Shown: positions 2,963 to 5,162 of the stretch, piece after piece
Position numbering within the stretch: position 1 is the first letter of the stretch
Layout: every line of letters starts with the position of its first letter
From: an uncultured Pelagibacteraceae bacterium
GTDB lineage: Bacteria; Pseudomonadota; Alphaproteobacteria; Pelagibacterales; Pelagibacteraceae
NCBI GenBank assembly: GCA_902578255.1
Contig: CACHCH010000004.1
Coordinates: 1-64,000, forward strand
DNA length: 64,000 bases
Direction of reading: 5' to 3'
Program-made: the position numbers and the translations under genes
The notes under the pieces: model-generated
Told to the model about the DNA's origin: nothing
The model's database searches: none
The model's input: the letters and a program-made list of their open reading frames with translations, nothing else

Positions 2963-3180
2963 ACAATAAAATATTTGAATGGGCTGGAGTCATAACTGCA
3001 ATATTATATTCTTTGTTTGTAGCTTTAAATATAGGGATTGAATTTTTCGGTTTTTGTTTATTACTTTTTTCAGCAATTTTAATCGGAATATGGGCTTATA
3101 GGGGCGGTCATAAGGGAATTTTATTTCTACAATTTTTTTATGCAACAGCCGGTATTATTGGGATGGTACGTTGGTTTTAA
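2959..3180 (+). CDS. Small two-helix inner-membrane protein, unknown function
   Basis: This 73-residue protein consists almost entirely of hydrophobic segments: about residues 8-25, a second stretch to about 45, and a short C-terminal hydrophobic stretch after the GGHKG turn. It starts inside the stop of the amidotransferase gene (ATGA), so it is translationally coupled to it. No family is recognised. Its stop codon overlaps the stop of the convergent photolyase-like gene (TTAA), leaving no room for a separate terminator. Confidence 0.65.
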   Translation: MNNKIFEWAGVITAILYSLFVALNIGIEFFGFCLLLFSAILIGIWAYRGGHKGILFLQFFYATAGIIGMVRWF

Positions 3181-4316
3181 TTAAAGCTTGATATTATTTT
3201 TGGAATATAATTTTTAAAATTAAAAAAACCTTTGTTGCAATATTGCCAGGAAAATCGATCAAGATCCCTGTATAAAAAATCTAATTTAATATTATTTGAA
3301 TTTAAATAATCTAAGTTTTCACCAACAGTTGGATATAATCCAAAACAGTTTTCAATATTTTTAATTTCACTAATATCAATAACCTCACATTCAATAGAAT
3401 TATCTTTTAATCTTTGTTGTTGGTCATTCATTAAAAGAGACTTAAATTTCACTGCCTTTTCACTAAGCTTGATAGCTCTATTTTCATTTTTAACAGCAAC
3501 TATATATATTTTTTTAAAATTATTTTCTTTGAAGTCAGTGATTTCAAATGAGAGATTATTCTCAAAAACTACAAGATTTTTTCTCTCAATATCCTGAGGA
3601 TTGCTGAAATCTTGTCTAATTATAGAGTAAGTTTTTTCTGAAATTTTTGGAGAAGCATTCTCGTTTAATTTGATGTTTTGAAATCTGTTATTGGTAAATT
3701 TTTTTATATTCCATTCACTTGCCAGGTAATGCTTACCTTGTGTTTGAATTCCGGCTACCCATCTCCAACCAAGGGTGTTAGATGCAGCATCTCCATCATA
3801 CAGATGTTGCATAAAAAACTCAGCACCAAGTTGCCATGGTAATTCTAGTGTGAAAATCCAAATACTCGCAAACCACATTCTGGTGTGGTTGTGAAGATAG
3901 TTAGTTTCTTTGAGCTCATTTACCCAAGAATTAAAGCACTCAATGTTTGTTTTCCCTTCAATTGCATTTAAATATTCTTTATTATCTTTAAAATCTTCTC
4001 TTATTTTTTTTAGCTCTATTATATAATCATTCCATACATTTGGTCTTAACTCGAGCCACCCTTTCCAATAAGTACGCCAAAGAACTTCTTGAATAAACTT
4101 TTCATTTTTAGCGAAAGAAAATTTATCAAGAGATTTTTTTATTATTTCTTTTTCGTTTATTATCCCGTGTGTAATGTAAGGTGATAAGCAAGAGACATTA
4201 GATCTACTCTCTGGACCAAGATCAAAATTTCTTAATTTAGAGTAATCTGTTAAATTATTTTCAATAAAATGATTTAGTTTTTCAATGGCTTTCTTCCTCG
4301 AAGCCTCAAATAACAT
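3177..4316 (-). CDS. FAD-binding cryptochrome/photolyase-like protein lacking the N-terminal antenna domain
   Basis: The first 230 residues match the helical FAD-binding half of the photolyase/cryptochrome family. The segment GDAASNTLGWRWVAG, followed by QTQGKHYLAS, corresponds to the FAD-contacting region (DxxxNxGxWxW...G). The protein begins directly with this region, where a normal photolyase has an N-terminal Rossmann-like antenna domain. The last 150 residues (LVVFENNLSF, KIYIVAVKNE, later GFFNFKNYIPKI) look like a short alpha/beta domain whose first strand resembles the usual photolyase N-terminus, so the order may be swapped. Likely roles are blue-light DNA repair or light sensing. Photolyase assignment is solid at family level; activity is not shown. 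It lies 7 nt after psiE on the same strand. Confidence 0.78.
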   Translation of the reverse strand: MLFEASRKKAIEKLNHFIENNLTDYSKLRNFDLGPESRSNVSCLSPYITHGIINEKEIIKKSLDKFSFAKNEKFIQEVLWRTYWKGWLELRPNVWNDYIIELKKIREDFKDNKEYLNAIEGKTNIECFNSWVNELKETNYLHNHTRMWFASIWIFTLELPWQLGAEFFMQHLYDGDAASNTLGWRWVAGIQTQGKHYLASEWNIKKFTNNRFQNIKLNENASPKISEKTYSIIRQDFSNPQDIERKNLVVFENNLSFEITDFKENNFKKIYIVAVKNENRAIKLSEKAVKFKSLLMNDQQQRLKDNSIECEVIDISEIKNIENCFGLYPTVGENLDYLNSNNIKLDFLYRDLDRFSWQYCNKGFFNFKNYIPKIISSFN

Positions 4317-4323
4317 ATTTAAA

Positions 4324-4704
4324 TTACCTAGATTTTTTTTTCTTTAGACCAAGTTTGTCACTATGTCTTAATCTTAGAACAACAATTGCTCCAGCAATCA
4401 ACAATATAGCAACTGCTTCATAAACAAGAGCTGTAGGATCCATTTCTTTTCCTTGAAGAATAATAAATCGAGCAAGAGCTGTTATTGCAATAAGAAGTGG
4501 CAGGGTTATACTTATAGATTGTTGATTCCAAAAAACTCTTACCATTGCAAGCACTTCTAAATATAGAAACATTAAAAGCAAATCAGCTAGAGTAACTAAT
4601 TGATTTGCAAACATATTTAATATTTCAATGCCAACAGCAATAATAGTGCTGATTAAAATAATACACATCAATCCCAATTGTAAGTTTTTTGCGATCTTAT
4701 CCAT
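4324..4704 (-). CDS. psiE: PsiE-family membrane protein
   Basis: The protein has 126 residues with four hydrophobic helices and a basic tail (KKKKSR). The order of helices and the central segment LYLEVLAMVRVFW fit the PsiE family, named for phosphate-starvation-inducible psiE of E. coli, whose biochemical function is not established. The start codon shares one base with the stop of the upstream membrane-protein gene (TAATG), so both belong to one transcript with the photolyase-like gene downstream. Confidence 0.8.
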   Translation of the reverse strand: MDKIAKNLQLGLMCIILISTIIAVGIEILNMFANQLVTLADLLLMFLYLEVLAMVRVFWNQQSISITLPLLIAITALARFIILQGKEMDPTALVYEAVAILLIAGAIVVLRLRHSDKLGLKKKKSR

Positions 4705-5162
4705 TATTTATCTTTACTAAACGGTAGCCATTTTTCAAATACTGATTTTGAAGAACCATCATATGGAATTGAGTAAGAATAAGGGTTTGGACTAGTTAGA
4801 ACTTCAATTCCTTTTGAAAAGACGAATATAAAAACAATAACAAAAACAATTACCATTATCTTAAAGGGATCAAAATTTTTTGTCTTAAAAACGCTAGCAG
4901 AACTTTCTTCAGCTCTGTGGAAATGTTTAAATGTCATATAGACTGCAAAAATCAAACCAATATGAGCTATAAATAGACCTGCCCAACCAAATGCAAAAGT
5001 TGTATATGAAAAAACATATAAACTAAAAACTGTAGTCCAAATAAAACTTAACACTAAAAGAATTTGTAATCTAACTGTTTTAGGAAGGGCCCTCAAATCA
5101 TTTTTACTATCATCAAATAAAATATTTGCTGCTTCTATCATCCAATTTTTTAATGATTCCAT
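4704..5162 (-). CDS. Small inner-membrane protein with a 2TM-like hydrophobic pair
   Basis: The 152-residue protein has a soluble N-terminus of about 35 residues, two close hydrophobic helices (about 35-80), a charged linker and one more strong helix (IMVIVFVIVFIFVFS), then a polar end. I cannot name a specific family with confidence; 2TM-domain proteins are the nearest resemblance. It heads a three-gene minus-strand run with psiE and the photolyase-like gene. A candidate promoter places its transcription start almost on the ATG. Confidence 0.6.
   Translation of the reverse strand: MESLKNWMIEAANILFDDSKNDLRALPKTVRLQILLVLSFIWTTVFSLYVFSYTTFAFGWAGLFIAHIGLIFAVYMTFKHFHRAEESSASVFKTKNFDPFKIMVIVFVIVFIFVFSKGIEVLTSPNPYSYSIPYDGSSKSVFEKWLPFSKDK

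Follow-up and report, generated by a model that had tools for sequence, protein, structure and literature searches.

Near the start of the window (i.e., the whole 64,000-nucleotide stretch of Pelagibacteraceae DNA that was analyzed), a real and intact open reading frame of 379 aa is found on the reverse strand, with its ATG at 4316 and the end of its stop codon at 3177. The features of this locus are:

3177..4316, reverse strand: gene very probably encoding a NewPHL-type photolyase, 379 aa (open reading frame, FAD_binding_7, SAR11 orthologues, tree)
3642..4316, reverse strand: N-terminal FAD/catalytic domain, residues 1-225, with E77, W80, N143, R146, M147, W161, D174, D176, N180, W184 and W186 (E. 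coli photolyase alignment; conservation in 51 NewPHL sequences)
3180..3611, reverse strand: predicted C-terminal alpha/beta domain, residues 236-379, at the position of the published 'Z-domain', with the conserved end R350..D353...W357.....GFFxFKxxIP (family alignment, low-confidence models, hhalign chain)
3546..3575, reverse strand: LVVFENNLSF (248-257), predicted as the first strand of the last domain (from the letters; the full-length model, of low confidence, has a DSSP strand at 247-251)
3474..3509, reverse strand: IYIVAVKNENRA (270-281), predicted to hold the second strand of the last domain (from the letters; the same low-confidence model has a DSSP strand at 270-274)
4324..4704, reverse strand: PsiE-family membrane protein gene (Pfam PsiE, E 3e-17; synteny kept among Pelagibacter relatives)

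The PsiE-family gene lies 7 bp upstream of the photolyase gene on the same strand, and its product is a neighbor outside the enzyme. Positions 4324-5162 of the window (reverse strand) hold this gene and that of a 152-aa membrane protein, which are placed with tiny gaps between argG and the photolyase gene. The order argG/membrane protein/PsiE/NewPHL is kept in about 100 Pelagibacter loci, some of them redundant, and a PsiE-like gene adjoins the NewPHL gene in one distant alphaproteobacterium (L166).

Residues 1 to about 225 resemble the FAD-binding domain of photolyases. FAD_binding_7 was the sole Pfam domain matched (residues 74-198, E 1.8e-18), and the match spanned only positions 1-127 of the 203 in the profile. 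The best relatives in the PDB were class I photolyases, and in the alignment with E. coli photolyase (1dnp) residues 3-197 corresponded to residues 200-395 of 471. Given that this alignment begins at residue 3 here and at residue 200 in the E. coli enzyme, nothing antenna-like precedes the FAD domain, and the FAD half comes first, as the sequence-only reading had proposed. The HMM check of domain order suggested in that reading recovered FAD_binding_7, while the DNA_photolyase antenna domain (PF00875) had no match anywhere in the protein at E-values up to 10. No Pfam family was matched by residues 236-379 even at E 10. It had also been suggested that the gene is a circular permutation. The inverted order stands, and descent of the last domain from the antenna is possible; however, because the Pfam match and the 1dnp alignment both stop short of the ends of their references, the usual end of the FAD domain has been lost and not relocated. 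The arrangement is therefore not a clean circular permutation, and a strict one was rejected.

AlphaFold2 models of the full-length protein (81 close relatives) and of the C-terminal domain (66 relatives) had pLDDT values of 64 and 66, respectively. These low-confidence models predict alternating strands and helices in residues 236-379, which is consistent with an alpha/beta domain placed last, and both predict beta strands at LVVFENNLSF and IYIVAVKNENRA, the segments that had been called strand-like from the letters. Foldseek searches of the models against the PDB returned weak, generic Rossmann-like matches, and no solved structure in the PDB spans the C-terminal domain. The poor model confidence and the Foldseek outcome are probably attributable to shallow alignments.

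In E. coli photolyase, the residues that contact the cyclobutane pyrimidine dimer (CPD) are E274, W277, N341, R342, M345 and W384, and those that contact FAD include D372, D374, N378, S235, S238 and Y222. In the alignment with the E. coli enzyme, equivalents of all six FAD-contact residues and of E274, W277, N341, M345 and W384 were present, and the mapped residues were kept in at least 50 of the 51 NewPHL homologues. R342 is replaced by His144, and His is found at this position in 50 of the 51. The equivalents of W382 and W359 (W184 and W161) are invariant among the 51 sequences, while that of W306 is variable. As judged from these sequences, a Trp dyad replaces the triad in this protein; the NewPHL of D. 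shibae has been described as having 'a mere Trp dyad' (PMC8948257). No Fe-S cluster cysteines were found in the 51 sequences, in which one column alone had more than 50% Cys.

Orthologues, counted as matches with E below 1e-90, were found in 136 of 197 SAR11-order genomes (130 among the 144 of the protein's own family, 6 among the 53 of the second family), with both halves and the full length conserved. The gene is thus near-universal in Pelagibacteraceae, which are among the most abundant bacteria of the ocean. Outside SAR11, a profile search of 385 alphaproteobacterial genomes identified full-length homologues in 23 genomes, and the identity of full-length homologues in other Alphaproteobacteria varies from 32 to 48%. 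Homologues with the same C-terminal motif occur in Roseobacteraceae, Rhizobiaceae, Sphingomonadaceae, Caulobacteraceae and Azospirillaceae; plasmid-borne ones, found in Ruegeria, Peteryoungia, Novosphingobium, Niveispirillum and Asticcacaulis, are annotated, if at all, merely as 'FAD-binding domain-containing protein'. The 51 non-redundant sequences are conserved over their full length and share a sharp C-terminal motif, R-D-W-GFFxFKxxIP. No viral relative was found in IMG/VR, and matches in phage records reach the FAD domain only. The gene is under purifying selection, with dN well under dS over its whole length; among the closest pairs, the C-terminal half is under weaker constraint than the N-terminal half. 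The frame of the NewPHL gene is interrupted in two SAR11 genomes (G168:C40:28049-29187 and G044:C7:27157-28294), where the matches are overlapping pieces with stops, reflecting either recent decay or assembly errors.

In a tree of FAD domains from 37 NewPHL, 10 Phr4-like and 29 class I proteins, each group was set apart by a well-supported branch (99/99, 99/84 and 100/100, respectively), and NewPHL plus Phr4-like proteins were split from class I at 100/100. The protein falls in a clade of alphaproteobacterial homologues that includes a Roseobacteraceae protein. The neighbor relation of the NewPHL and Phr4-like groups agrees with the published tree (PMC9426592).

We are confident that the gene encodes a SAR11 member of the NewPHL photolyases, a FAD-dependent CPD photolyase, matched to the named NewPHLs by their published description. 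The original papers on NewPHLs and SPLs are those of Emmerich et al. (2020; doi 10.1093/nar/gkaa1147) and Xu (2021); the family is followed here through PMC13274461 and PMC9426592. Also called SPLs by some authors, and Phr7 in Prochlorococcus, they are repair enzymes for CPDs in single-stranded DNA with an inverted domain topology (PMC13274461). Named NewPHLs, from alphaproteobacterial hosts, are A8LJA9 of D. shibae, M7YZC8 of M. mesophilicum, Q2N8F4 and B6IPR5 (PMC13274461), and the members of D. shibae and M. mesophilicum were shown to be CPD photolyases on single-stranded DNA (PMC9426592). A related alphaproteobacterial family, which the sequence-only reading had thought might exist, was therefore already known; the inverted domain order is real but was previously reported in other bacteria, and the protein is best regarded as an unremarkable member of a family of photolyases known since 2020.

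With the NewPHLs of Dinoroseobacter and Methylobacterium the protein shares the FAD domain first, the alpha/beta domain last, the Trp dyad, the lack of Fe-S cysteines and an alphaproteobacterial host, and no difference was found when it was compared with them by description rather than by direct alignment. It is about 30 aa shorter than the Ruegeria and Rhizobiaceae homologues. Phr7 of high-light Prochlorococcus, also compared by description, has an N-terminal FAD domain and a C-terminal Z-domain, is without Fe-S cysteines, is nearest to Phr4/Phr6 (PMC9426592) and likewise belongs to a surface-ocean host, but that host is a cyanobacterium. Phr4/Phr5 and Phr6 of marine Synechococcus/Cyanobium (PMC9426592) are tree neighbors of the NewPHLs in which the FAD domain also precedes an alpha/beta domain; they differ in being encoded often by two ORFs, in having a recognizably antenna-like second domain and, in the published forms, in their Fe-S cysteines. 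A second domain of the Phr4/Phr6 type, recognizable by PF00875, was not matched in the SAR11 protein, and the clades are separate. Class I CPD photolyase (E. coli PhrB, 1dnp) shares the FAD-binding fold and the CPD- and FAD-contact residues but has the antenna first, a complete FAD domain, a Trp triad and R342. CRY-DASH proteins share the reported substrate, CPDs in single-stranded DNA, and a weak NCBIfam similarity but differ in domain order. DASH membership was rejected, as the TIGR02765 score of 67 bits is far under the cut-off of 317.

FAD binding, the repair chemistry and the role of the last domain are proposed here from sequence and relatives. FAD would be held by the helical N-terminal domain, reduced under blue or UV-A light via a two-tryptophan chain (W184, W161) and then excited. 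The excited FAD would pass an electron to a CPD held by E77, W80, N143, M147 and W186, and the dimer would be split. The C-terminal alpha/beta domain may stand in for the end that the FAD domain lacks, probably packs on the FAD site and need not bear a second chromophore. According to the abstract of the original description, the C-terminal domain of NewPHLs is said to seal the FAD site from solvent. By analogy with characterized relatives, the enzyme probably acts on CPDs in single-stranded DNA, in place of a DASH-type one. No DASH gene scored over the NCBIfam cut-off in the 385 alphaproteobacterial genomes, which is consistent with the NewPHL filling the DASH place.

A FAD domain that is incomplete at its end could also be expected of a class I photolyase that has decayed or been truncated, or the architecture could be an accidental fusion in one genome. 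Either origin is scarcely credible, given that the same architecture recurs in most of the family's genomes and elsewhere in Alphaproteobacteria, that the gene is under purifying selection and that its strongly supported clade lies apart from class I; a truncated class I gene was rejected on the grounds of this separate clade and the conservation. A cryptochrome-like blue-light sensor on the NewPHL scaffold, in which FAD binding and photoreduction are kept and repair is lost, is improbable. The surface-ocean habitat permits such a sensor, His takes the place of R342, the last domain could serve for output, and for repair the genome retains a full class I photolyase, which is encoded by one gene elsewhere. 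Yet all the remaining CPD-contact residues are conserved family-wide, no known output domain is attached, and the gene adjoins a DPRP photolyase gene in most of the compared SAR11 genomes.

That neighborhood was compared in the 75 SAR11 genomes with both NewPHL and DPRP genes, where DPRP denotes PF04244, a domain of PhrB-type photolyases. In 57 of them, the two genes are 1.2-6.3 kb apart and always convergent (e.g., G005, G064, G130 and G188), so that many Pelagibacter genomes have both at a shared locus; the other pairs, mostly of other genera or of the other family, are far apart or on separate contigs. The proximity of a convergent DPRP gene supports a repair role for the NewPHL gene. By analogy with their family, the SAR11 DPRP proteins may have (6-4) activity. 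No DPRP gene was found in the present assembly, which is 82% complete; because the window starts at a contig end on that side, this is not read as absence of the gene.

Whether the last domain of this NewPHL photolyase is a displaced antenna bears on how the domain order became inverted. The sequence-only reading had likened the strand-like segment LVVFENNLSF of this domain to the N-terminal WFRxDLR antenna region of photolyases. A direct profile match did not bear out an antenna origin: in hhalign comparison of 51 NewPHL C-terminal domains with 30 antenna domains, the probability was under 5% and within the shuffled range. The likeness emerged through the Phr5-like domains as intermediates. 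These domains matched the antenna profile with a probability of 95.9 and a score of 56.7, compared to 40.6 for the best of 100 shuffles, and one Deinococcus protein matched Pfam PF00875 at E 7e-4, short of the curated cut-off. The NewPHL C-terminal profile was in turn colinear with the Deinococcus and Phr5-like domains over 109-129 columns, with scores of 31.0 and 29.6, respectively, above the highest scores of the shuffled controls, 24.4 in 150 shuffles and 25.8 in 100, and LVVFENNLSF fell in the same register as the first strand of the Phr5-like domains. As the step from NewPHL to Phr5-like domains is modest, we hold an antenna origin, suggested by this chain of profiles, at a little over even.

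The C-terminal domain could instead be an alpha/beta domain of other descent that was taken on to close the FAD site, which would leave the identity of the enzyme the same. This is a substantial possibility, though one we put somewhat short of even: the insignificant direct comparison with antenna domains, the lack of a PF00875 match and the generic Foldseek results all speak for it, but the NewPHL C-terminal domains do match Phr5-like domains that are themselves antenna homologues, and the Phr4-like and NewPHL FAD domains are tree neighbors apart from class I. For the antenna origin, the Phr5-like domains provide a testable link. It is possible, though less likely than not, that the NewPHLs arose by a domain swap in which the antenna moved from in front of the FAD domain to a place behind it, perhaps via a stage of two adjacent genes of Phr4/Phr5-like type, and later decayed into a lid on the FAD site. 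If so, Alphaproteobacteria would retain both the split and the degenerate stage, and Deinococcus and Cyanobium the fused one.

Split photolyases of the Phr4/Phr5-like type, in which a FAD-only ORF overlaps or abuts a small antenna-like ORF, are also found outside cyanobacteria. They occur in several alphaproteobacterial families (L203-L210 in G226, G453, G412, G407, G443, G214, G522 and G292; L211 in G530) and on a plasmid of Deinococcus QL22 (L200, 1357-2130 and 2127-2648), while the FAD and antenna-like ORFs are fused on two other Deinococcus plasmids (L138 and L201). A KHCQGCP...CPFDASY cysteine cluster is present in the Phr4-like proteins L205 and L210 and in the Deinococcus proteins, and seemingly absent from L203, L204, L206, L207 and L209; the Fe-S site may be patchy in this group.

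Genes for AarF/ABC1/UbiB kinases lie beside the NewPHL gene on Ruegeria, Peteryoungia and Asticcacaulis plasmids (L133, L134, L137, L222 and L223), and DUF3429 genes also lie beside some NewPHL loci (L135, L137, L222 and L223), hinting at a cluster for light or photo-oxidative stress.
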